Assembly (NCBI RefSeq): GCF_003390845.1
Contig: NZ_QMEK01000003.1
Location: forward strand, 1 to 64,000
Length of the DNA: 64,000 nt
Source: Tropicimonas sp. IMCC34043
GTDB taxonomy: Bacteria; Pseudomonadota; Alphaproteobacteria; Rhodobacterales; Rhodobacteraceae
Direction: 5' to 3'
A program made the translations under genes and the position numbers. Within the stretch, counting starts at the first letter, position 1, and every line of letters begins with the position of its first letter. Below, piece after piece: positions 10,064 through 21,483 of this stretch. The notes below the pieces were generated by a model. The model was not told where the DNA came from, did no database searches, and worked only from the letters and a program-made list of their open reading frames with translations.

Positions 10064-10252
10064 ATGGCAAAAACCATCGTCGTCAAGCAGATCGGGTCTC
10101 CGATCCGCCGTCCGGCCAAACAGCGCCAGGTCCTCGTCGGTCTTGGTCTGAACAAGATGCACAAGACCCGCGAACTTGAGGACACCCCCTCGATCCGCGG
10201 CATGGTCAACAAGATCCCGCATCTCGTGACAATCATCGAAGAACGCGGCTGA
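10064..10252 (+). CDS. rpmD: 50S ribosomal protein L30
   Basis: A 62-residue L30 with [34 protein letters not shown] and the [11 protein letters not shown] end. It is the last ribosomal gene of this cluster: a strong terminator begins 25 bp after the stop, and rplO-secY, which usually follow, are absent from the window. Confidence 0.97.
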
Positions 10253-10277
10253 TCCAGTCGGTCAGGAAATTATGAAG

Positions 10278-10304
10278 CGCCCCGGTTCTCCGGGGCGTTT
10301 TTTT
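10278..10304 (+). terminator. Strong intrinsic terminator closing the S10/spc cluster
   Basis: A perfect 8-bp stem CGCCCCGG/CCGGGGCG (10278-10285 with 10290-10297), a TTCT loop and seven consecutive T residues. This is one of the two best intrinsic terminators in the window, with the one after rpoC. Confidence 0.92.
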
Positions 10305-10488
10305 GTGTCTCCCTGTCTCCCTGTCTCGTTGGCGAGGTGCCTCGCCCCACAGGGCCTTTGTCCGATAGGGCGGGCGGCGTTTCCGTGGTAATTTACGTTA
10401 CGGAATCCTTCGGCCGACCGAAGGGCCGTTGCCGTACCCGGACACGCCAATCCTAGGGCTGCGCGGGTGGCTACAGGGGGGGGACACC

Positions 10489-10935
10489 ATGAATTTCGTC
10501 AAGGCTGCAGCGGGCGCGATCTGCGTGGCGGCATTGCCGTTTGGGGCGGCATTGGCCGACAGCGCGGCCGAGGTCGAAGCCGCCATCGCAGGCTGGCAGG
10601 AAATGTTCAACGCCGGAGACGGACAGGCTGCGGCGAATGCCGTTTTCGCCGAGGATGCCCGGTTGTTGCCGCCGGGCGCCCCGATGGTCGAAGGGCGCGC
10701 GGCAATAGCCGACTTCTGGCAGACGGTGATGGATTCCCCGGCACACTCGCTCGAGCTGGGGTTGATCTCGGTCGATGTGCTTGGGGACACCGCAATCGAA
10801 ACCGGGACCTGGTCGATCATGGTTCCAACCGATGGCGGCGAAAGCCGGATCGGCGGCAAGACCCTGGTGGTCTGGAAAAAGCAATCGGATGGCGTCTGGC
10901 GCATGAGCCAGGACATGTGGAACGACACGCCCTGA
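10489..10935 (+). CDS. Secreted NTF2-like (DUF4440/SnoaL type) protein
   Basis: A 148-residue protein with a predicted signal peptide (about residues 1-23, ending ALA-D) and a single NTF2-like domain. The N-terminal helix AAIAGWQEMFNAGDGQAAANAVFAEDARLLPPGAPMVEG and the late TLVVWKKQSDGVWRMSQDMWN strand follow the SgcJ/EcaC/DUF4440 pattern. Such domains form small cone-shaped dimers with a ligand pocket, and function cannot be read from the sequence. The ATG at 10489 follows a GGGGGGGAC stretch and starts the signal peptide cleanly. It is convergent with the DMT gene and stands alone between two larger operons. Confidence 0.8.
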   Translation: MNFVKAAAGAICVAALPFGAALADSAAEVEAAIAGWQEMFNAGDGQAAANAVFAEDARLLPPGAPMVEGRAAIADFWQTVMDSPAHSLELGLISVDVLGDTAIETGTWSIMVPTDGGESRIGGKTLVVWKKQSDGVWRMSQDMWNDTP

Positions 10936-10964
10936 GGAGGGCGCTCGGTGCCCGCGGCGGCGTC

Positions 10965-11408
10965 TTAGCGGAAGGTCACCAGCCAGACGCCGCCGACCAC
11001 CATCGCGGCTCCCAGCAGTTTGGCAGCGGTCAGCTCCATCGCCGGGGCGCCGAACAGGCCGAGCTGGCTGAACACCATCGCGGCAAGGATCTGACCCGCC
11101 ACCATCAACACGAAAAAGCCACCGATGCCGATCCGCGGCACCAGAAAGGCCGAGCCGAGGATCATGACCGCGCTCATCGCCCCCGAGGTCAGAAGCCAGG
11201 GCGAAAGCCCCGGGATCTTCGCGAAATCGGGGGCACGGCTGCCGGTGGCGAGGGCAAGTGCGACCGAGGTCAGCAATCCGACCGCATAGAAGACTACGTT
11301 GGCGAGAGGTCCCGAGCCAAGGATCTGGGCGCTGCGCGAGATCATCGGCAGATAGACCGACATCATGGCGCCCATCGCCATGGCAAGGAAGATCAGCGGC
11401 AGGGACAT
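10965..11408 (-). CDS. DMT-superfamily small transporter (DUF606/YdcZ type)
   Basis: A very hydrophobic 147-residue protein with four to five predicted membrane helices and Gly/Ala-rich helix faces, matching half-size DMT proteins of the DUF606 (YdcZ) family, which probably work as dimers. The start at 11408 (MSLPLIF) is preferred because an earlier in-frame start would add a polar segment ahead of the first helix. It is the last gene of the long minus-strand pyrimidine block, 94 bp after the binding-protein gene, and may be independently expressed. The substrate is unknown; export of a catabolic end product is only a guess. Confidence 0.75.
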   Translation of the reverse strand: MSLPLIFLAMAMGAMMSVYLPMISRSAQILGSGPLANVVFYAVGLLTSVALALATGSRAPDFAKIPGLSPWLLTSGAMSAVMILGSAFLVPRIGIGGFFVLMVAGQILAAMVFSQLGLFGAPAMELTAAKLLGAAMVVGGVWLVTFR

Positions 11409-11502
11409 TGCGGACTCCGTTGGCCGCGCCGGCGAGGGCAGGGCGCAATGTCGGACGGCGCACATGGCGTGCGCCGTCCTTCGCGTGCGTGCAGGCCGCG
11501 GC

Positions 11503-12498
11503 TCAGTTCAGCGCCTTGTCGGTGATCTCGAGCGTATAGGCGCCCTCGGGCTCTTTGGTGATGACCGGGTCCGAGCCACCGCTCAGGAGCGTTTCGACGG
11601 TCCGCTGATAGTCGGCCGGGTCGAGCGCGCCGTTCGAGCCGGCAGTCAGCTTGGCAACCTCGCTCATCATCTGCTTCTGGTGATGCTCGGTCTGGGCGCC
11701 GGTCTCGTCATAATCGAGCACGATCATCGCGGCGTCGTCCGGGTTTGCCTCGGCCCATTTCCAGCCCTTCATCGAGGCGCGGACAAAGCGCACCATCTCG
11801 TCGACAAAGGCCGGGTCCTTCAGGTTGTCTTCCATCACGTACATGCCGTCTTCCAGCGTCGCGACGCCCATGTCCTCGTACTTGAAGGTGATCAGCTCGT
11901 CGGGGGAAACGCCCGCGTCGATCACCTGCCAGTATTCGTTATAGGTCATGGTGCTGATGCAGTCGGCCTGGCGCTGCAGCAGCGGGTCGACGTTGAAGCC
12001 CTGTTTCAGCACCGTCACGCCGCCATCGCTGCCGTCGGTCGGGATGCCAAGCTTGCTCATCCAGCTGAGGAACGGGTATTCGTTGCCGAAGAACCAGACG
12101 CCGATGGTCTTGCCGCGCAGATCCTCGGGCTTGGTGATCCCGGTGTCTTTCCAGCAGGTCAGCATCATCCCCGAGGACTTGTAGGGCTGTGCAATGTTGA
12201 CGATGGGCAGGCCCTTTTCGCGCGAGGCGAGCGCCGAGGGCAGCCAGTCCAGCACCACATCGGCGCCGCCGCCGGCGATGACCTGCGCGGGTGCAATGTC
12301 GGGACCGCCCGGTTTGATCGTGACATCGAGGCCTTCGTCCTCATAGAACCCCTTGTCGAGCGCCACATAATAGCCTGCGAACTGGGCCTGGGTCACCCAT
12401 TTGAGCTGCAGCGTGACCGCGTCGCCGGCACTGGCCGAGGTTGCGACCACGGTCGAAAGGGCAAGCGCCGAGGCGGCGCCGAACAGGAACGTCTTCAT
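11503..12498 (-). CDS. ABC transporter substrate-binding protein (NMT1/THI5-like)
   Basis: A 331-residue periplasmic binding protein. The start at 12498 follows a GGAGG site and gives a classic signal peptide (residues 1-24, cleavage after SASA). The mature part begins LQLKWVTQAQFAGYYVALDKGFYEDEGL, the hallmark of the NMT1/THI5 family that binds pyrimidine precursors, riboflavin or related heterocycles. GGGADVVLDWLPSALASREKG forms the first lobe-binding loop. It lies at the end of the permease-ATPase series and next to pyrimidine-degradation enzymes, so a pyrimidine or related heterocycle is the most likely ligand. That is inferred from context. Confidence 0.88.
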   Translation of the reverse strand: MKTFLFGAASALALSTVVATSASAGDAVTLQLKWVTQAQFAGYYVALDKGFYEDEGLDVTIKPGGPDIAPAQVIAGGGADVVLDWLPSALASREKGLPIVNIAQPYKSSGMMLTCWKDTGITKPEDLRGKTIGVWFFGNEYPFLSWMSKLGIPTDGSDGGVTVLKQGFNVDPLLQRQADCISTMTYNEYWQVIDAGVSPDELITFKYEDMGVATLEDGMYVMEDNLKDPAFVDEMVRFVRASMKGWKWAEANPDDAAMIVLDYDETGAQTEHHQKQMMSEVAKLTAGSNGALDPADYQRTVETLLSGGSDPVITKEPEGAYTLEITDKALN

Positions 12499-12546
12499 GG
12501 TAATACCTCCGTGGTGTGGATTTGAGTTTTTGTTTTCGCGCATGGA

Positions 12547-13401
12547 TCAGCGCCCCCGACGTTGCGAGGGGTGCCAGAAGGTGACGTGCCGCTCGATCAC
12601 AGCGACAAATCCGTAGAAGGCCGACCCGGCAATGGCGGCCACGAGGATCTCGGCCCAGACCATGTCGAGCGACAGCCGCCCGACCTCGGTCGAGATCCGA
12701 AATCCCATGCCGCGGATCGGCGAGCCGAAGAATTCGGCCACGATGGCGCCGATCAGCGCCAGCGTCGTTGCAACCTTGAGCCCGTTGAAGATGAAGGGCA
12801 TGGCGGCCGGCAGCCTCAGCTTCAGCAGCGACTGCCAATAGCTTGCGGCATAGGTGTGCATCAGGTCGCGCTGCATCCGGTCGGTGGCGCGCAGTCCCTC
12901 GACCGTGTTCACGAGGATCGGGAAGAACACCATCACGACCACGACGGCGGCTTTCGACTGCCAGTCAAAGCCGAACCACATCACAAGGATCGGGGCGACG
13001 CCGATGATCGGCAGGGCGGCCATGAAGTTGCCGACCGGCAGCAGCCCGCGGCGCAGGAAATCGCTGCGGTCGACCAGCAGCGCGACCACGAAGGCCGCAG
13101 CCGCCCCCATGACATAGCCGCTCAGCGCCCCCTTCACGAAGGTCTGGATGAAGTCCTGACGCAGGATCGACGTGCTGGCCAGAAACCGTTCCCAGATCGC
13201 CGTCGGTGCGGGCAGGATCACGCCCGGCACGTTCAGCCCGCGCACCAGCCCCTCCCAGAACACCAGAAGCGAGATCCCGAACAGCGTCGGCACCAGCAGC
13301 CGGGTGATCGCCTGATCGCGGCCCTCGCCATTGGCCATGGCAACGTTCAGCAGCGTGGCGAAGATCAGGAAGGCGATGGACCAGCCAAAGATATGATTCA
13401 T
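12547..13401 (-). CDS. ABC transporter permease (SsuC/ThiX type)
   Basis: A 284-residue inner-membrane permease of the binding-protein-dependent type, with about six membrane helices. The cytoplasmic coupling segment HTYAASYWQSLLKLRLPAAMPFIFNGLKVATTLALIGAIVAEFF corresponds to the EAA loop that docks the ATPase. Its start (ATG at 13401) overlaps the stop of the preceding permease gene by 4 bp. With its partner it would form a heterodimeric channel. A 48-bp gap with a fresh ribosome-binding site separates it from the binding-protein gene. Confidence 0.88.
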   Translation of the reverse strand: MNHIFGWSIAFLIFATLLNVAMANGEGRDQAITRLLVPTLFGISLLVFWEGLVRGLNVPGVILPAPTAIWERFLASTSILRQDFIQTFVKGALSGYVMGAAAAFVVALLVDRSDFLRRGLLPVGNFMAALPIIGVAPILVMWFGFDWQSKAAVVVVMVFFPILVNTVEGLRATDRMQRDLMHTYAASYWQSLLKLRLPAAMPFIFNGLKVATTLALIGAIVAEFFGSPIRGMGFRISTEVGRLSLDMVWAEILVAAIAGSAFYGFVAVIERHVTFWHPSQRRGR

Positions 13402-14402
13402 TGGCTCATTCCCATCCGCTTCAGCGTGACGGTCTGCAGCGCCCCGATGATCCCGACCAGCACCGCCGCCAGCAGGGCGGCCGCAAACAGCGCCGACCAG
13501 ATCTGCACGGTCTGGCCATAATAGCTGCCGGCGAGCAGCCGCGCGCCAAGGCCGCGGACCGCACCCGTCGGCATCTCGCCGACGATGGCACCAACCAGCG
13601 CCGCCGCCATGCCGATCTTCATCGAGGTGAAGAAATAGGGCATCGAGGAGGGCCAGCGCAGCTTCCAGAACGTCTGCGCGCGGCTGGCGCCATAGGTGTG
13701 CAACAGATCAAGCTGCATCGCGTCGGGGCTGCGCAGCCCCTTCACCATCCCGACCGTGACCGGGAAAAAGCACAGATAGGCCGAGATCAGCGCCTTGGGC
13801 AGCAGCCCTGTGACACCGATCGAATTCAGCACCACGATGATCATCGGCGCGATGGCGAGGATCGGAATGGTCTGGCTGGCAATCGCCCAGGGCATGATCG
13901 CCATGTTCATCACCCGGCTGTGCACGATCCCGACCGCCAGCGCGATGCCCCCGACGGTCCCGATGGCAAAGCCCAGGACCGTGGCGCTGAGCGTCACCCA
14001 GGCGTGATAGAGCAGGCTGCGCTTGGAAAGCCCCTTGCCCTCCAGCACCATCGCCCCGGTGGTCGCCCACAGCTCGCGCCACACCTGATCGGGTCCCGGC
14101 AGCCGCGGACGGTCCTGGCGCAGGGTATCGGCGATATAGGCGGGGTTCTTCAGTACCAGCCCGATGGCATTGGCATCGCGCCGCTCGATGGCATTTGGCG
14201 GATCGACGACCGCACCGGCGCGTTCCGCCTGCGTCAGCGACTCGCGGATGTTCATCGGCACGAGCGCCGTGTACCACAGCGCCGCAATCGCGGCGAGAAC
14301 CACAAAAACCGGCACCACGCTGCGCAGAATCGGCAGCATCCGCGAGCCGGCGGGCGTCGGGTGACGCGCAGGCGCCGCGTCCGGTCTGAGCTCACTCGTC
14401 AT
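13398..14402 (-). CDS. ABC transporter permease, larger subunit
   Basis: A 334-residue permease. ATG 14402 is chosen because AGGA lies seven bases upstream; an alternative ATG is at 14408. One N-terminal membrane helix (about residues 20-40) is followed by a periplasmic stretch of roughly 80 residues and then the usual six-helix permease core. The coupling loop reads HTYGASRAQTFWKLRWPSSMPYFFTSMKIGMAAALVGAIVGEM. It overlaps the ATPase gene by 11 bp and the second permease by 4 bp. The extra periplasmic segment distinguishes it from SsuC and may contact the binding protein. Confidence 0.87.
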   Translation of the reverse strand: MTSELRPDAAPARHPTPAGSRMLPILRSVVPVFVVLAAIAALWYTALVPMNIRESLTQAERAGAVVDPPNAIERRDANAIGLVLKNPAYIADTLRQDRPRLPGPDQVWRELWATTGAMVLEGKGLSKRSLLYHAWVTLSATVLGFAIGTVGGIALAVGIVHSRVMNMAIMPWAIASQTIPILAIAPMIIVVLNSIGVTGLLPKALISAYLCFFPVTVGMVKGLRSPDAMQLDLLHTYGASRAQTFWKLRWPSSMPYFFTSMKIGMAAALVGAIVGEMPTGAVRGLGARLLAGSYYGQTVQIWSALFAAALLAAVLVGIIGALQTVTLKRMGMSQ

Positions 14403-15228
14403 AAGCATGTCCTGCGCGCAGCCCTTCGCGCACCCTATGGGCAATGGCGAGGAACTCGGGCGTGTCGCGGATTTCGAGCGGGCGTTCGCGGGGCAGGGTG
14501 CTTTCGATCACGTCGGTGATCCGCCCCGGCCGCGGCGACATCACCACGATCCGGGTCGAAAGATAGACCGCTTCCGGGATCGAGTGGGTGACGAAACCGA
14601 TGGTCTTGCCGGTCCGCGCCCAAAGCGCAAGCAATTGCTCGTTCAGATGGTCGCGCACGATCTCGTCGAGCGCACCGAAGGGTTCGTCCATCAGCAGGAT
14701 ATCGGCGTCGAAGGCAAGCGCCCGCGCGATCGAGGCGCGCTGCTGCATGCCGCCCGACAACTGCCAGGGAAACTTGTTGCCGAACCCCTCCAGATCGACC
14801 AGCTTCAGCACCCGTTCGACCTGCCGTTCCTGATCGTCCTTCGAATAGCCCATGATCTCGAGCGGCAGCTTGATGTTCTTGGCAATCGTCCGCCAGGGAT
14901 AGAGCCCGGCGGCCTGAAACACATAGCCATAGGCCCGCGCACGGCGGGCCTCGTCCGGGGTCATGCCGTTGACGGTGATCTCGCCGCCCGTCGGATGCTC
15001 AAGCGCCCCGACGACCCGCAGGAACGTGGTCTTGCCGCAGCCCGAGGGGCCGATGAAGCTGACAAAATCGCCGCGGTTGACGGTGAGGTTCACGTCGCGC
15101 AGCGCAAGGACAGGGCCGTCGTTTGTCTGGAACGTCAGGTCGAGCTTGCGCGCCGCGATGACGATGGGAGAGGCGGTCTCTGCACGCGCTGCCGCCACGG
15201 GGCTATCCGTTTTCATTCTGGGGTCCAT
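14392..15228 (-). CDS. ABC transporter ATP-binding protein (SsuB/ThiZ/TauB type)
   Basis: A 278-residue nucleotide-binding subunit with a complete set of motifs: Walker A GPSGCGKTT (60-68), Q-loop in YVFQAAGLYPW, signature LSGGMQQR (157-164), Walker B ILLMDEP (177-183) and the switch histidine in VTHSIPEA. The Q-loop and D-loop sequences place it in the nitrate/sulfonate/taurine/pyrimidine importer class. It energises import through the two permeases encoded immediately downstream. The start at 15228 overlaps the VOC gene by 26 bp; an internal Met at 15216 is also possible. Confidence 0.92.
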   Translation of the reverse strand: MDPRMKTDSPVAAARAETASPIVIAARKLDLTFQTNDGPVLALRDVNLTVNRGDFVSFIGPSGCGKTTFLRVVGALEHPTGGEITVNGMTPDEARRARAYGYVFQAAGLYPWRTIAKNIKLPLEIMGYSKDDQERQVERVLKLVDLEGFGNKFPWQLSGGMQQRASIARALAFDADILLMDEPFGALDEIVRDHLNEQLLALWARTGKTIGFVTHSIPEAVYLSTRIVVMSPRPGRITDVIESTLPRERPLEIRDTPEFLAIAHRVREGLRAGHAYDE

Positions 15229-15712
15229 CGTTCAGATCCTGGCTGGTCGGAGCCCGTTCGGCAACGGAGGAGTGGCTCGCATTCGTGCCGCCCCACAGCC
15301 GGGGCTCCGCGAACTCGATGCTGTTGCCGGCCGGGTCGCGAACATAGACCGACCTTGCCCCGTTCGGCCAGGCGAAGTCCGCCTCGATCGGCACGGACGC
15401 GGCCTCGAGCCTGTCGCGCATGCGCGACAGGCCTTCGGCGTCCATCGCAAAACAGATATGCCCCGCGCCCGTTGCCCCGTGCGTCGGTACAGGAAGCGCG
15501 CCCTCCGCCGGCGGGACGCGCGTCGCTGCGGCCACGAAGACCAGGACGATGCCCGCCCCGCACCGGAAGAACACGTGTCGGCCATCGACCCGGACGATGC
15601 GCGCCAGCCCGAGCACACCGCCATAGAACGCTTCTGCCGCGTCCAGATCGTCGACATAGACGGCAGATTCGAGCACACCCGAGACGGCGGGGACCGCGCT
15701 CACCCCGCTCAC
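15203..15712 (-). CDS. VOC-superfamily (glyoxalase-like) protein
   Basis: A 169-residue protein with two beta-alpha-beta-beta-beta modules typical of the vicinal oxygen chelate fold. The first is ESAVYVDDLDAAEAFYGGVLGL with VFFRCGAGIVLVF, the second GAGHICFAMDAEG through to RSVYVRDPAGNSIEFAEPRLWG. The conserved DPAGNSIEFAEP end and the H in GHICF are the usual metal-site elements. Members include glyoxalases, dioxygenases and epimerases, so the reaction cannot be assigned. It overlaps dihydropyrimidinase by 4 bp (ATGA) and the ATPase gene by 26 bp, so it is firmly inside the operon. A role in handling a reactive aldehyde from pyrimidine breakdown is speculative. Confidence 0.85.
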   Translation of the reverse strand: MSGVSAVPAVSGVLESAVYVDDLDAAEAFYGGVLGLARIVRVDGRHVFFRCGAGIVLVFVAAATRVPPAEGALPVPTHGATGAGHICFAMDAEGLSRMRDRLEAASVPIEADFAWPNGARSVYVRDPAGNSIEFAEPRLWGGTNASHSSVAERAPTSQDLNDGPQNENG

Positions 15713-17160
15713 ACCCCGCTCGCCGGAATACCGGCGCGCATCACGGGCCGCGGCGCGCTCAGCGCCTTCCAGGTCGACAGCGCCTTGTTGACCGACCCGC
15801 TGGGCGCGCGGGCGACGAACTCGCCGTTGCCTTCCGTCGAGGTGATCTTGCCGTCGTTGAACGACACCCGGCCGCGGCTCAGCGTATAGCGCGGCAGGCC
15901 CTTCACCTCCTTGCCTTCGAAGACGTTGTAGTCGATCGCCGACTGCTGGTCGTTGGCCGAGATCGTCTTGGTCTTCTCCGGGTCCCAGACCACCAGGTCT
16001 GCGTCCGCGCCGACCAGCACCGCGCCCTTCTTCGGATAGCAGTTCAGGATCTTGGCGATATTGGTCGAGGTGACGGCGACGAATTCGTTCGGCGTCAGCC
16101 GCCCGGTATTGACGCCATAGGTCCAGAGCATCGGCATCCGGTCCTCGAGCCCGCCGGTTCCGTTCGGGATCTTGGTGAAATCGCCGACGCCATAACGTTT
16201 CTGCTCGGTGGTAAAGGCGCAGTGGTCGGTCGCGACGCAGGACAGCGAGCCCGACTGCAACCCGGCCCAGAGGCTGTCCTGATGCTTCTTGTTGCGGAAC
16301 GGCGGGCTCATCACCCGGCGCGCGGCATGGTCCCAGTCCTTGTCGAAGTACTCGCCTTCATCGAGCGTCAGGTGTTGGATCAGCGGCTCGCCCCAGACCC
16401 GCTTGCCCGCCATCCGCGCCCGCCGGATCGCCTCGTGGCTCTCCTCGCAGGAGGTATGCACGACATAGAGCGGCACGCCCGCCATGTCGGCGATCATGAT
16501 GGCACGATTGGTTGCCTCGCCCTCGACCTGCGGCGGGCGCGAATAGGCATGCGCCTCGGGCCCGGTGTTGCCCTCGGCCAGCAACCGCGCCGACAGTTCT
16601 GCCACCACGTCGCCGTTCTCGGCATGTACCAGCGGAATGGCGCCAAGCTCGGCACAGCGCTGGAAGCTCGCGAACATCTCGTCGTCGTTCACCATCAGGC
16701 TGCCCTTGTAGGCCATGAAATGCTTGAAGGTGGTGATGCCCTTGTCGACCACCTGCTGCATCTCGTCAAAGACCTGCTCGCTCCACCAGGTGATCGCCAT
16801 GTGATAGGAATAGTCGCAATGCGCCCGCGTCGACTTGTTGTGCCAGCGGTCGAGTGCCGACAGCAGCGATTGACCGGGATCGGGCAGGGCGAAATCGACA
16901 ACCATCGTGGTGCCGCCCGCAATCGCTGCCCGGGTGCCGGATTCGAAATCGTCGCTCGAATAGGTGCCCATGAAGGGCATCTCGAGGTGGGTATGCGGGT
17001 CGATCCCGCCCGGCATGACATAGCAGCCGGTGGCATCGAGCACCTCGTCTCCGACAAGCCCCGACCCGATGGACGCGATCTTGCCGCCCTCGATCAGCAC
17101 ATCCGCCTTGTAGGTCAGATCCGCGGTGACGATAGTGCCGTTCTTGATGAGCGTGGTCAT
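15709..17160 (-). CDS. hydA: Dihydropyrimidinase
   Basis: A 483-residue cyclic amidohydrolase that opens dihydrouracil or dihydrothymine to N-carbamoyl-beta-amino acids. All metal-site residues of the family are visible: His56 and His58 (HTHLEMP), the carboxylated lysine Lys152 (FMAYKG), His179 (VHAEN), His235 (VHTSC) and Asp312 (TDHC). Length and the NGTGGLEDRMPML motif match dihydropyrimidinases rather than dihydroorotases or allantoinases. Hydantoinase activity is an alternative within the same family. It follows the amidohydrolase gene after 112 bp containing a dispersed repeat, and overlaps the VOC gene by 4 bp. Confidence 0.95.
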   Translation of the reverse strand: MTTLIKNGTIVTADLTYKADVLIEGGKIASIGSGLVGDEVLDATGCYVMPGGIDPHTHLEMPFMGTYSSDDFESGTRAAIAGGTTMVVDFALPDPGQSLLSALDRWHNKSTRAHCDYSYHMAITWWSEQVFDEMQQVVDKGITTFKHFMAYKGSLMVNDDEMFASFQRCAELGAIPLVHAENGDVVAELSARLLAEGNTGPEAHAYSRPPQVEGEATNRAIMIADMAGVPLYVVHTSCEESHEAIRRARMAGKRVWGEPLIQHLTLDEGEYFDKDWDHAARRVMSPPFRNKKHQDSLWAGLQSGSLSCVATDHCAFTTEQKRYGVGDFTKIPNGTGGLEDRMPMLWTYGVNTGRLTPNEFVAVTSTNIAKILNCYPKKGAVLVGADADLVVWDPEKTKTISANDQQSAIDYNVFEGKEVKGLPRYTLSRGRVSFNDGKITSTEGNGEFVARAPSGSVNKALSTWKALSAPRPVMRAGIPASGV

Positions 17161-17202
17161 TCCTAGTCTCCCGTTCGGCCGGCCATCCCCTCACCCCGCT
17201 GC

Positions 17203-17254
17203 GGTTTCTTCTTGGCGAAAATACCTCGGGGGGAGCGGGGGGCAGCGCCCCCCG
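17203..17254 (-). repeat. Dispersed GC-rich intergenic repeat, copy A
   Basis: Read on the minus strand it starts GGGGGGCGCTGCCCCCC, then a C-run, then GAGGTATTTTCGCCAAGAAGAA. The same arrangement recurs at 35,246-35,310. It sits between hydA and the amidohydrolase gene. The 5' half can fold into a stable hairpin, so it may modulate expression within the operon. Confidence 0.7.
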
Positions 17255-17272
17255 TTGCCGGACCTTTGCGTT

Positions 17273-18523
17273 TCACGCGACGATTTCCGCCGTCTCCAGC
17301 ACCGCGTGGCACAGCACGTCGGCGCCGGCCGCGGCCCATTCCTTGCTGATGTCCTCGGCTTCGTTGTGGCTCAACCCGCCGACGCAGGGGCACATGATCA
17401 TCGTGGTCGGCGCCACCTTGGCGGCCCAGCAGGCATCGTGGCCGGCACCCGACACCAGGTTCATGTGGCTGTAGCCGAGCTTTTCGGCGGCGTTGCGCAC
17501 GTTTGCCACCAGCTCCGGCGTGAAGGTCACCGGATCGAAATGCCCGACCCGCTCGACCGCGCAGCCGACACCGAGCGCTGCGCAGATCCGCGCGGCGCGG
17601 TCCTCGATCTCGTCGCGCATGCGGTCAAGCTTTGCCTGATCGACGGTGCGGATATCGACGGTGAACACCACCTTGCCCGGCAGCACATTGCGCGAATTGG
17701 GGCTGAAGGTCACCTGGCCGACGCCGCCGACGGCATTCGGCTGGGCGGCCATCGCGACCTCCTGCACCATCTCGAAGATCCGCGCCATGGCAAGCCCGCC
17801 ATTCACCCGCATCTCCATCGGCGTCGATCCGGTGTGCGCCTCTTTCCCGGTCAGGGTGAACTCGAGCCACCACAGACCCTGGCAATGGGTGACGACGCCG
17901 ATGTCCTTGCCCTCGGCCTCGAGGATCGGCCCCTGCTCGATGTGCAACTCGAAATAGGCGTGCATCTTGCGCGCGCCGACGTCCTCGTCGCCAACCCAGC
18001 CGATCCGCTTCAACTCGTCGCCGAACCTCAACCCCTCAAGGTCGACCCGGTCATAGGCATAGTCGAGCGTGTGGACGCCCGCGAAAACGCCCGAGGCCAG
18101 CATCGCAGGCGCAAACCGCGCGCCTTCCTCGTTGGTCCAGTTGGTAACGACGATCGGGTGTTTGGTCTTGATCCCCAGATCGTTCATCGTGCGCACCGCT
18201 TCCAGCGCGCCGAGCACCCCCAGCACCCCGTCGTATTTCCCGCCCGTGGGCTGGGTGTCGAGGTGGCTGCCGACATAGACCGGCAGCGCGTCGGGGTCTT
18301 CGCCCGGACGGGTGGCAAACATCGTGCCCATCTTGTCGACGCCAAGGCTCAGCCCCGCCGCCTCGCACCAAGACTTGAACAGGTTGCGCCCTTCGGCATC
18401 GGCATCGGTCAGGGTCTGGCGGTTGTTGCCGCCCGCGATACCCGGTCCGATCTTTGCCATGTCCATGATCGAGTCCCAAAGACGGTCGGGGTTGATCCTG
18501 AGGTTTTCGCCGGGGGCGGTCAT
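17273..18523 (-). CDS. Zn-dependent amidohydrolase (N-carbamoyl-beta-alanine amidohydrolase likely)
   Basis: A 416-residue M20/HyuC-type hydrolase. Metal and catalytic motifs are present: GSHLDTQ (His87, Asp89), GGKYDG (Asp98) and NEEGARF (Glu132/133), and a C-terminal GAGHDA with a metal-binding histidine. The dimerisation or lid domain includes the substrate-binding TGKEAHTGSTPM block. The family includes N-carbamoyl-L-amino-acid hydrolases, beta-ureidopropionases and allantoate amidohydrolases. The neighbouring dihydropyrimidinase and beta-alanine-type aminotransferase favour N-carbamoyl-beta-alanine as substrate, giving beta-alanine, CO2 and ammonia. It starts 3 bp after the ACT gene stop. 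Confidence 0.9.
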   Translation of the reverse strand: MTAPGENLRINPDRLWDSIMDMAKIGPGIAGGNNRQTLTDADAEGRNLFKSWCEAAGLSLGVDKMGTMFATRPGEDPDALPVYVGSHLDTQPTGGKYDGVLGVLGALEAVRTMNDLGIKTKHPIVVTNWTNEEGARFAPAMLASGVFAGVHTLDYAYDRVDLEGLRFGDELKRIGWVGDEDVGARKMHAYFELHIEQGPILEAEGKDIGVVTHCQGLWWLEFTLTGKEAHTGSTPMEMRVNGGLAMARIFEMVQEVAMAAQPNAVGGVGQVTFSPNSRNVLPGKVVFTVDIRTVDQAKLDRMRDEIEDRAARICAALGVGCAVERVGHFDPVTFTPELVANVRNAAEKLGYSHMNLVSGAGHDACWAAKVAPTTMIMCPCVGGLSHNEAEDISKEWAAAGADVLCHAVLETAEIVA

Positions 18524-18526
18524 GAG

Positions 18527-18934
18527 CTACTCCAGTTCTGCTAGGGCGTCCTGCCCCAGGGAGAGGGCCAGCAGCACGGCAAGTGCGGCCTCTGCGCGGT
18601 CGTCCGGGACAAAGACATGGTCGTGATTGTTGGCCGCCACGACATTGCAGGGAATGTCATGGGCGGCGAGGGCCGCCGAAACCGCGGCTGTCAGGCCGAC
18701 GCCGTCGAGCGCCGACAGCACGTCGAGTGTGATCTGGCGAAAGGCGGGCACGCCTTCTGCCGCGGGCAGGATCAGCGACAGGCCCTCGTCCTCGCGGAAC
18801 GAGGCGAGCGCCTCGGGCAGCAGCCGGGCAGCGTCGGCCGGGTCGGTGACGCTCCGGAAGGCGAACCTTCCGGACAGCAGACGCGGCGCCATTGCCCGCA
18901 CCATCGCCCGGCCTTCTGTCACGCGCTCGGCCAT
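18527..18934 (-). CDS. ACT-domain protein (COG3602-like)
   Basis: A 135-residue protein with a duplicated ACT-like fold. The diagnostic stretch is LTAAVSAALAAHDIPCNVVAANNHDHVFVP, close to the CNVVAGxxHDHxFVP signature of this conserved family. ACT domains bind small ligands such as amino acids and often regulate enzymes. The family has no established reaction. It sits between the aminotransferase and the amidohydrolase with 28- and 3-bp spacers, so it is part of the catabolic operon and might sense beta-alanine or another intermediate (inference). The start is uncertain: Met at 18904 has a better-placed AAGG. Confidence 0.8.
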   Translation of the reverse strand: MAERVTEGRAMVRAMAPRLLSGRFAFRSVTDPADAARLLPEALASFREDEGLSLILPAAEGVPAFRQITLDVLSALDGVGLTAAVSAALAAHDIPCNVVAANNHDHVFVPDDRAEAALAVLLALSLGQDALAELE

Positions 18935-18962
18935 CGCTTTGCGTCCCGTACCGCCAGTTTCG

Positions 18963-20288
18963 TCAATCCAGTTCCGTCAGCACTTCGCGCAGCGTGCCGA
19001 TCAACTGATCGATATGGGCCTTTTCGATGATCAGCGGCGGCGACATGGCGATGATGTCGCCGGTGGTGCGGATCAGCACGCCCTTTTCGTAGGCCTTCAG
19101 GAAGGCGGTAAAGGCACGCTTCGTCGGTTCGCCCGGGATCGGCTCCAGCTCCACGGCGCCGATCAACCCCATGTTGCGGATGTCGATCACATGCCGCGCA
19201 TCCGCCAGCGAATGCATGGCCTCTTCCCAATAGGGCGCGAGTTCGGCCGCGCGTTCGAACAGGCCTTCCTCGCGATAGGTCGCAAGCGTCGCAAGGCCCG
19301 CGGCCGAGGCGAGCGGGTTGCCGGAATAGGTATAGCCGTGGAACAGCTCGATCATGTGCTCGGGGCCGGTCATGAAGGCGTCGTGGATCTTGCTCGTCGC
19401 CAGCACGGCGCCCATCGGAATGACCCCGTTGGTCAGGCCCTTGGCCGTCGTCATCAGGTCGGGCATCACGCCGAAATATTCGGCGGCAAAGCTTGCGCCC
19501 AAGCGGCCGAACCCGGTGATCACCTCGTCAAAGATCAGCAGGATCCCGTGCTTGTCGCAGATCTCCCGCAGTTTTTGCAGATAGCCCTTGGGCGGCAACA
19601 GAACCCCGGTCGAGCCTGCCATCGGTTCGACGATCACAGCCGCAATCGTCTCGGGGCCGTGCAGGTTGCAGATCTTTTCCAGTTCGTCGGCCAGATAGGC
19701 GCCGTGTTCGGGCTGGCCGCGGGTCATCCGGTTGTCGGGCAGGTGGGTCGCCGGCAGATGGTCGACCCCGGTCAGCAGCGAGCCGAAGAACTTGCGGTTG
19801 GTGCTGATGCCGCCGACCGAAATGCCGCCGAAGTTGACACCGTGATAGCCGCGTTCGCGGCCAATGAGCCGGGTGCGCTGGCCCTCGCCACGGACCCGAT
19901 GATAGGCGAGCGCGATCTTCAGCGCCGTCTCGACCGATTCAGAGCCGGAGTTGGTGAAGAACACATGCTCGAACGGCTCGGGCGCCATGTCGCGCACCGC
20001 ATTGGCCAGCTCGAAGGCCTTCGGATGGCCCATCTGAAAGGCGGGGGCATAGTCAAGCTCGCCGGCCTGCTGGCGGATCGCCTCGACGATCTTCGGCCGG
20101 TTGTGGCCAGCGTTGCAGCACCACAAGCCCGCGGTTCCGTCCAGCACCTGACGGCCGTCGTCGGTGGTATAAAACATGCCGTCGGCCGACACGAACATGC
20201 GCGGCGCCTTCTTGAACTGCCGGTTGGCGGTAAACGGCATCCAGAATGCAGAAAGATCGTTGGGGGCCGGCTTGTGGTCGAGCGCCAT
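18963..20288 (-). CDS. Omega-amino-acid:pyruvate aminotransferase (class III)
   Basis: A 441-residue PLP enzyme of the beta-alanine:pyruvate transaminase type. It starts with the family pattern DLSAFWMPFTANRQFKK, has SGSESVETALKIA for phosphate binding, IFDEVITGFGR with Asp254, and the PLP lysine Lys283 in TTAKGLTNG. It should transfer the amino group of beta-alanine to pyruvate, giving malonate semialdehyde and alanine, the step after the amidohydrolase. It is the first gene of the minus-strand operon and starts 76 bp from the RutR palindrome. AAGGA nine bases upstream of ATG 20288 is the ribosome-binding site. Confidence 0.93.
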   Translation of the reverse strand: MALDHKPAPNDLSAFWMPFTANRQFKKAPRMFVSADGMFYTTDDGRQVLDGTAGLWCCNAGHNRPKIVEAIRQQAGELDYAPAFQMGHPKAFELANAVRDMAPEPFEHVFFTNSGSESVETALKIALAYHRVRGEGQRTRLIGRERGYHGVNFGGISVGGISTNRKFFGSLLTGVDHLPATHLPDNRMTRGQPEHGAYLADELEKICNLHGPETIAAVIVEPMAGSTGVLLPPKGYLQKLREICDKHGILLIFDEVITGFGRLGASFAAEYFGVMPDLMTTAKGLTNGVIPMGAVLATSKIHDAFMTGPEHMIELFHGYTYSGNPLASAAGLATLATYREEGLFERAAELAPYWEEAMHSLADARHVIDIRNMGLIGAVELEPIPGEPTKRAFTAFLKAYEKGVLIRTTGDIIAMSPPLIIEKAHIDQLIGTLREVLTELD

Positions 20289-20363
20289 TCTGTTTGGTCC
20301 TTATATATACTGGCGTCCCGTGGGTCCTGGTCGGGTCCGGTCCGGGGCTGGCCGGGTGAAGGT

Positions 20364-20379
20364 TTGACCAAATGGTCAG
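20364..20379. promoter_or_regulatory. RutR operator palindrome
   Basis: The 16-mer TTGACCAAATGGTCAG matches the E. coli RutR consensus TTGACCAnnTGGTCAA at all but the last base. It lies between the divergent aminotransferase operon and rutR, 140 bp before the rutR start codon. Uracil or thymine binding to RutR is known to release it from such sites. A second, much weaker TTGGTC...GTCAA arrangement lies at 20,393-20,410. Confidence 0.85.
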
Positions 20380-20393
20380 GATCACGCTATCAC
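20364..20393 (+). promoter_or_regulatory. Candidate rutR promoter overlapping the operator
   Basis: TTGACC (20364-20369) and TATCAC (20388-20393) are 18 bp apart, or CTATCA with 17 bp. The -35 hexamer is part of the RutR palindrome, which would make rutR autoregulated. No equally clear promoter was found for the minus-strand operon. Confidence 0.4.
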
Positions 20394-20503
20394 TTGGTCG
20401 GGATCAGTCAATCCGCCCTCCTCGTGTTACTGCCCGGGGCTGCGACGGCACGTCTCGGGCCCGTGCCGGAAACAAGGCGGATTGATCGGAATTTGAGCGC
20501 CCC

Positions 20504-21139
20504 ATGAATTCTGCAAGACCCAAGGACAAGACTTCGCCCCATCGAACAAGAATCCAGCGCAAGAACCGCGAAGCGATTCTCGACGCCGCGCTCGACGTGT
20601 TTTCGACCGACGGTTTTCGCGGTGCGACGGTTGACAGGATCGCCCAGGCGGCCGGGCTGTCAAAGCCCAACCTGCTGTATTATTTCCCCTCGAAGGAGGC
20701 GATTCATCTGGCGCTTCTGTCCGGGCTTCTCGACCGCTGGCTGGCGCCGCTGCAGGCGCTCGACCCCACCGGCGACCCGGTCGAGGAGATCCTGCGCTAT
20801 GTCCGCCGCAAGCTGGAGATCAGCCGCGAGATGCCGCGCGAAAGCAGGCTTTTCGCCAACGAGATCCTGCAAGGCGCCCGGCACCTGCAGCCGACACTTG
20901 AAACGGTGCTGAAACCGCTGGTGGACGAACAGGCCGCGGTGATCGAAGGCTGGATGCGCGAGGGCCGGATCGCCACCTTGAATCCCTATCACCTTATTTT
21001 CTCGATCTGGTCGCTGACCCAGCACTATGCCGATTTCGACGTCCAGATCCGCACCGTTCTGGGCGAGGCCGAGGGCGACCCCTTCCCCGAGGCGCAGCGC
21101 TATCTGGTGACGCTGTTCACCCGGATGCTGAAGCCGTGA
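20504..21139 (+). CDS. rutR: TetR-family pyrimidine regulator RutR
   Basis: A 211-residue regulator. The N-terminal TetR helix-turn-helix (about residues 25-70) has AILDAALDVFSTDGFRGATVDRIAQAAGLSKPNLLYYFPSKEAI. The C-terminal domain follows E. coli RutR closely: LLDRWLAPLQAL, LEISREMPRESRLFANEIL, IEGWMREG and HLIFSIWSLTQHYADF. RutR binds uracil or thymine and controls pyrimidine use. In E. coli it also links to glutamate and arginine metabolism. It is divergent from the catabolic operon and separated by 215 bp holding a near-consensus RutR box. ATG 20504 is used; the ribosome-binding site is weak. Confidence 0.93.
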   Translation: MNSARPKDKTSPHRTRIQRKNREAILDAALDVFSTDGFRGATVDRIAQAAGLSKPNLLYYFPSKEAIHLALLSGLLDRWLAPLQALDPTGDPVEEILRYVRRKLEISREMPRESRLFANEILQGARHLQPTLETVLKPLVDEQAAVIEGWMREGRIATLNPYHLIFSIWSLTQHYADFDVQIRTVLGEAEGDPFPEAQRYLVTLFTRMLKP

Positions 21140-21221
21140 CGGAAGGTGGCCCGAGCCTGCTCAACCATCGCGCGAGGCCGGCGAAGCTGACGGCGCCGCG
21201 ATTGCGTTAACATCTTGCCTC

Positions 21222-21250
21222 TTGGCAATCGCCATGTTTGCGCCTAAGTA
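21222..21250 (+). promoter_or_regulatory. Promoter candidate for rplJL-rpoBC
   Basis: TTGGCA (21222-21227) and TAAGTA (21245-21250) are separated by 17 bp. It lies about 230 bp upstream of rplJ in a clearly more AT-rich stretch, and a transcript from here would include the whole L10 leader. Confidence 0.45.
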
Positions 21251-21344
21251 ACGCTCTCGCAGATCAGCGTGCGATTCGTCGTGCGCTGTTTTGCGTTTCG
21301 TCCAAGACGGTGGGTGGGGTCGTTTGACCTCTTAATTTCCTGCT

Positions 21345-21483
21345 CGAGACGGGAGACGACAAGATTGGCCAGAGGGTGACCTCGGGTGGATTGGCGCTGA
21401 CCCCGTATACGGACCCGAGTGCCGGAGCAATCCGGCAAGTGAGAGCCGGGGGGTCTCAAGCCCCTCATACTTGGAGTGAAACT
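21345..21483 (+). ncRNA. Ribosomal protein L10 leader
   Basis: The untranslated stretch before rplJ folds into ordered elements: a 7-bp stem (21381-21387 with 21413-21419), a 6-bp hairpin with a GCAA loop (21421-21436) and a third GGGG/CCCC stem around 21448-21464, just before the ribosome-binding site. In bacteria the L10-(L7/L12) complex binds such a leader to repress its own operon. Identification rests on position and foldability rather than a covariance match. Confidence 0.65.

Follow-up and report, generated by a model that had tools for sequence, protein, structure and literature searches.

A candidate RutR-type operator between rutR and a reductive pyrimidine operon in Tropicimonas and its relatives

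In the 64-kb stretch of the Tropicimonas sp. IMCC34043 genome analysed here (hereafter the window), a short palindrome lies between a gene for a RutR-type TetR regulator (20504-21139, + strand) and a divergent operon (20288-11503, - strand) carrying genes of the reductive route of uracil breakdown along with a candidate ABC transporter. This arrangement raises the question of whether the palindrome is the operator of the adjacent regulator and, if so, which of the flanking genes it serves.

The palindrome and its neighbours

The site reads TTGACCAAATGGTCAG (20364-20379, no strand assigned) and was located by pattern scanning and conservation; the T preceding it (20363) is also kept among relatives. 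Compared with the E. coli RutR consensus, which we take to be TTGACCANNTGGTCAA or, written as a palindrome, TTGACCAnnTGGTCAA, it has a single mismatch at 14 fixed positions and thus carries the motif of a RutR operator. The initial annotation had described a 16-bp palindrome one base off the E. coli consensus, flanked by rutR on one side and by reductive pyrimidine genes on the other; its sequence and coordinates are exact, and profile matches agree with both flanks. Within the window, this is the sole place with no more than two mismatches to TTGACCANNTGGTCAA, the other two matches having three, and at up to three mismatches 1.27 matches are expected by chance, 12 of 100 shuffles reaching the three that are present. 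The 4.6 Mb genome contains two places with at most one mismatch to the RutR consensus, one being the site at 20364-20379; the other (C13:113700) was dropped because it falls within a gene for elongation factor G. At up to two mismatches, the 38 places in the whole genome compare with 34 for the reversed-pattern control. This is the background level, and the genome-wide two-mismatch scan was therefore not used as evidence. Similarity by itself is thus not decisive for the site, and it is conservation that decides.

The regulator (211 aa) is assigned to the RutR type by its matches to TIGR03613, PDB structures, and PF08362 and by alignment to E. coli RutR. Both curated RutR cutoffs are missed, with 221 bits for TIGR03613 (cutoff 368) and 199.6 bits for NF011584 (cutoff 230); in a phylum sample of 397 genomes, the TIGR03613 cutoff is reached in one genome, and 154 show a match with an E value no higher than 1e-38. 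The closest solved relatives are the E. coli RutR structures 6z1b and 3loc (E about 3e-54), the domain composition is that of RutR (TetR_N, PF00440, 55 bits; TetR_C_3, YcdC-like, PF08362, 161.6 bits), and 93 of 208 aligned residues (45%) are identical to E. coli RutR. Passages of the study PMC10891134 name W77, Y97, W167, Q171, and Q179 as the uracil contacts of E. coli RutR and place K52 in its DNA-binding helix. All five contacts are kept in the regulator (W79, Y99, W169, Q173, and Q181) and are invariant across 110 Rhodobacteraceae loci, the window included; K52 is also kept, and the recognition helix is similar to that of E. coli RutR. In a single scan of the whole genome of the window, no further strong RutR was detected, the next match scoring 34 bits. 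A RutA search of the whole genome gave no rutA match, and the regulator thus lacks linkage to a rut operon. The neighbouring RutR-type uracil sensor very probably binds at the palindrome.

The divergent operon, all on the - strand, starts with an omega-aminotransferase of the AptA type (18963-20288; NF052567, 768.5 bits, exceeding the cutoff of 500), which presumably catalyses the beta-alanine step, and a small ACT-domain protein (18527-18934; PF13840, PF10000). These are followed by a PydC-type amidohydrolase, a probable beta-ureidopropionase (17273-18523) with scores above cutoff for NF006769 (683.8 bits) and TIGR01879 (394.3 bits), two models that name the amidohydrolase family and not the PydC substrate, by the dihydropyrimidinase PydB (15709-17160; TIGR02033, 606.3 bits, cutoff 393.25), and by a glyoxalase-fold protein that overlaps its neighbours (15203-15712; PF00903). 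The remaining genes encode an ABC transporter ATPase (14392-15228) matching taurine/nitrate-type ATPase models, all below their cutoffs among the matches listed (25 of 183), two permeases (13398-14444, with an uncertain start codon, and 12547-13401; both PF00528), and an NMT1/THI5-like substrate-binding protein (11503-12543; PF09084, 131.3 bits). From its position in the operon, this transporter is a candidate for pyrimidine uptake. No gap between the genes exceeds 112 bp, and several of them overlap, which makes a single operon likely. A protein similar to the ACT-domain protein between aptA and pydC was found in two of 110 loci (L063 and L095), many of which are too short to show it. The pyd operon and rutR together sit between two ribosomal/RNA-polymerase-type gene runs (window 10064-21376): on one side a ribosomal-protein run closed by what we take to be an rpmD-like ORF (10064-10252), and on the other, from 21376, genes that are presumably rplJ-rplL-rpoB-rpoC-like. 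No rplO-secY-like continuation was noticed after the rpmD-like ORF in the window's ORF lists.

Conservation of the box and a second site upstream of pydX

Conservation was assessed in two overlapping samples of Rhodobacteraceae. The first comprises 110 loci, including the window itself, three genomes represented twice, and numerous Ruegeria. Upstream of rutR, 31 of these loci have a perfect box, 56 a box within one mismatch, and 70 a box within two, compared to an average of 0.055 and a maximum of 5 for 200 permuted palindromes; without the window and the repeats (106 distinct loci), the corresponding counts are 31, 54, and 68. For the second sample, 149 Rhodobacteraceae genomes were searched for rutR, which yielded a match in 126 and none in 23. 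Ninety of the 126 genomes were analysed (the 30 best matches and 60 picked by list position), covering 89 genera with little repetition and again including the window. Here, 71 of 90 genomes have the box with at most two mismatches upstream of rutR (average 0.09 and maximum 3 for 300 permuted palindromes). A pyd gene or aptA is present within the examined stretch in 86 of the 90 genomes and a pyd gene proper in 77. The initial annotation had proposed that the motif was kept and the pathway exchanged, which is a valid contrast with E. coli but not specific to this locus, as none of the 90 genomes has RutA close to rutR (30 of which were examined with only about 1.5 kb of flanking DNA).

The box is associated more closely with the divergent operon than with rutR. 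A scan for the motif at reductive-pathway operons in related genomes, which had been suggested as a check, found it with at most two mismatches at 70 of the 75 loci in which rutR is oriented divergently from pydC or aptA (window included) vs. one of the 15 others. The 110-locus set has the same pattern, with 65 of 74 divergent loci, six more at three mismatches, and five of 36 loci elsewhere. Furthermore, a 55-bp profile was built from 68 relatives outside the window's genus, in rows selected for having the box. Its operator columns are consequently not independent, while the promoter columns are. It scores 49.7 at 20361, compared to 1.9 at the runner-up position in the 64 kb.

The genome contains one dihydropyrimidine dehydrogenase gene (pydA) above cutoff, located on the window's contig about 128 kb away. 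We call the GltD-like gene directly upstream pydX from its position; its best models score below cutoff, and none of them names pydX. A perfect 8+8 palindrome, TTTGACCGGGCGGTCAAA, lies 70 bp before the pydX start codon (L014:5059-5076, corresponding to G000:C10:148558-148575). The pattern TTGACCRNNYGGTCAR, devised once both sites were already known, occurs at three places in the genome and at none with the reversed control, namely at 20364-20379, upstream of pydX, and at C10:124749-124764 (L259). The third match was set aside as probably due to chance: it is next to what we take to be transposase-like fragments, and no pyrimidine gene was recognised there.

Among the 90 relatives' loci, 32 contained pydX together with upstream DNA. 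The distance to the best upstream box, measured from a point 10 nt within the match, is 71-106 nt, and this box has one mismatch in one locus, two in four, three in 19, and four in eight. Thus, 24 of 32 relatives have a box with at most three mismatches, a count reached by none of 300 permuted palindromes (mean 0.3, highest 19). In 25 of the 32 relatives the pydX box has a different form, TTTACCRnTTGATAAA, and the window's genome has the stronger form. A first pydX set (23 loci, the window's own included) had its best match at 2-4 mismatches in 17 loci and at 7-10 in six, some of the latter having cut-off upstream DNA. The regulator is thus linked to pydX, pydA, pydB, and pydC, with operator-like sites at their promoters, as is characteristic of a PydR-type regulator.

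Promoter frame, proposed regulation, and alternatives

In an alignment of nine relatives, invariant blocks are found next to the box, in the order TTTGACCAnnTGGTCA-N5-ACGCTAnCA-N12-CAGTCAAG when read toward rutR. On the opposite strand, these blocks read as a -35 element TTGACTG, a 16-bp spacer, and an extended -10 element TGnTAGCGT, all aimed at the catabolic operon. The window accordingly contains a predicted extended -10 element, TGATAGCGT (20384-20392, - strand), that is conserved at a fixed distance from the operator, and a predicted -35 element TTGACT (20406-20411, - strand) with a 16-bp spacer, which would place the start of the catabolic operon near 20377, inside the operator. The two promoter-like blocks contain 9.1 and 9.5 bits of information vs. 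1.2 and 2.6 bits in the spacers. The exact frame ACGCTAnCA-N12-CAGTCAA is present in 56 of the 110 loci, i.e. in 55 of 79 loci with a box (up to three mismatches) and one of 31 without, and it does not occur when the sequences are reversed; in the 90-genome set, the frame is exact in 45 and relaxed (two changes permitted per block) in 63 of 75 divergent loci and is found in none of the 15 others. On the + strand, TTGACC in the left arm of the box (20364-20369) is a possible -35 element of a rutR promoter (20364-20393), followed 17-18 bp downstream by a weak -10 element (CTATCA/TATCAC, 20387-20393). A generic sigma-70 scan of the site region found no promoter for either candidate, and promoter function is therefore inferred from conservation and geometry.

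Considering the observed site, its conservation and geometry, the gene content, and the conserved pocket, it is highly probable that the palindrome is the operator of a uracil/thymine-sensing RutR-type repressor encoded alongside it, which would control both flanks as well as pydXA. Without pyrimidine, a RutR dimer bound to the box would cover the predicted start of the aptA-pydC-pydB-ABC operon and the -35 element of rutR and could thereby repress both the catabolic operon and rutR, the latter because the two share the operator. The second operator, 70 bp upstream of pydX-pydA, would bring the first enzyme of the pathway into the RutR regulon. Uracil entering the conserved pocket would release RutR and so induce the reductive route, in which uracil would be converted via dihydrouracil, ureidopropionate, and beta-alanine to malonate semialdehyde. 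As the box tracks divergent loci and the fixed frame is aimed at the operon, repression of the operon is likely the conserved function.

Alternatively, the box might mainly serve autoregulation of rutR, the catabolic operon being controlled elsewhere or constitutive. The TTGACC motif would fit this role if it were the -35 element of rutR, and the overlap of box and rutR promoter had been part of the initial annotation. The overlap is plausible, but the conserved promoter-like elements point to the operon, the box accompanies divergent loci in both samples (70/75 vs. 1/15 and 65/74 vs. 5/36), and pydX, which is distant from rutR, carries its own site. We consider this explanation improbable and rejected it as the leading reading because of the skew toward divergent loci; autoregulation through the shared site is plausible as a secondary effect.

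Even less probable is that the conserved block consists of nothing but two overlapping promoters and that the palindrome is no protein-binding operator. The left arm does resemble a -35 element, and the block holds a conserved extended -10 and -35. However, the right arm, GGTCA, is strongly conserved despite having no promoter role (in rows selected by the box, for which 70 of 75 loci qualify), and outside the Rhodobacteraceae the box and the frame part company. From the listed matches outside the Rhodobacteraceae, 100 were taken in list order, each with surrounding DNA (14.6 kb or less in total); the 101 regulators found there were scored, with gene labels assigned by tblastn score thresholds. 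Among these, a box with at most two mismatches precedes 23 of 31 pyd-labelled, five of 20 rut-labelled, and eight of 50 other genes, whereas the frame is exact in none and relaxed in eight of 103 RutR-family genes. As only five of the 20 rut-linked relatives have such a box and the best match upstream of E. coli rutR itself is three mismatches from the consensus, compared to one for the operator here, match quality alone proves little. Finally, a chance match, for which the background-level genome count at two mismatches might speak, is practically negligible given a box in 71 of 90 Rhodobacteraceae genomes vs. at most three for permuted palindromes, with which the 110-locus set agrees.

The RutR family and comparison with known systems

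The 110-locus set contains 22 second RutR paralogues (21 distinct; loci L024, L041, L043, L049, L053, L058-L060, L063, L065-L067, L072, L078, L088, L103, L104, L108, L113, L116, and L119, of which L041 and L065 are the same genome) that are about 42% identical to the window's regulator and keep the uracil contacts in all 22 cases. The second paralogue adjoins pydC, upstream of rutR (the L066 stretch does not cover pydC). Upstream of the 20 paralogues with enough DNA (two were dropped), CTGACCNNNNGGTCAA sites with at most one mismatch occur at least once in all 20 and twice, 30-34 bp apart, in 17, these being counts without a permuted control. At these 20 loci, the closest match preceding the older rutR has at least four mismatches in 15, three in three, and at most two in two. 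The presence of second paralogues, with the older operator mostly lost, suggests a regulator takeover. Control of the pyd operon may have passed to the second RutR paralogue in part of the Rhodobacteraceae, with the older operator mostly lost, a tentative reading that we regard as possible but somewhat doubtful. If true, one gene cluster would be shared by two uracil sensors whose DNA words are almost identical, and a takeover would have been caught in progress.

In a tree of 136 RutR-family proteins, rooted at the midpoint and with the root and some joining forks unsure, the window protein belongs to a 42-row clade (100/98) in which all rows except one are pyd- or aptA-linked. All 21 rut-linked rows, including E. 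coli, fall into one 32-row subclade (100/98), which also contains eight rows without recognised partners and three weak pyd labels that rest on a PydX-like match (L186-L188). Across the midpoint root there are a further 17 pyd-linked rows, of which 14 belong to the second-paralogue type, and the forks within the half containing the pyd- and rut-linked clades are weak (96/66 and 92/49). Since rows lacking recognised rut genes are interspersed, the tree requires eight changes of the rut label, and any direction or number of pathway changes read from it is tentative. With the rut rows in one subclade and pyd rows on both sides of the unsure midpoint root, it is at least as likely that the E. coli side changed pathway. 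Thus, within the RutR family as sampled here, the rut link of E. coli is not general, which helps annotation given that the regulator of the window scores below the curated RutR cutoffs. Six other proteobacterial RutR-family genes (L217, L219, L221, L231, L235, and L237) have good upstream palindromes (0-1 mismatch), and neither rut nor pyd genes were recognised near them.

Taken together, regulation of the reductive uracil pathway in Rhodobacteraceae can be assigned with good support to a uracil-sensor operator that keeps a fixed frame with conserved promoter-like elements aimed at the operon, along with another operator upstream of pydXA. The same arrangement recurs in related bacteria and is real, but largely of an already known type, and the general view of gene regulation is unchanged. 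A literature search on RutR with dihydropyrimidinase and regulon gave no match. The link between a RutR-type operator and the reductive pathway, as put forward in the initial annotation, is supported by the lack of a rutA match, the pydX-pydA site, the uracil contacts, and the similar recognition helix, but the idea is already in print. The E. coli system (rutA-G/rutR) is alike in its TetR-family RutR, its uracil contacts, the palindrome core, and a regulator divergent from the catabolic operon. It differs in that E. coli RutR, according to passages of PMC10891134, governs the Rut oxygenase pathway and carAB, whereas the genes here belong to the reductive pathway. This contrast is not novel: the title of Hidese et al. 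2012 (in the reference list of PMC7332683) describes PydR of Pseudomonas putida as a RutR-like repressor of a reductive-pathway gene, and Leyn et al. 2016 (PMC5343134) predicted RutR regulons of pyrimidine catabolism in 68 proteobacterial genomes from 13 taxa with taxon-specific motif changes, in passages that give no target genes per taxon.
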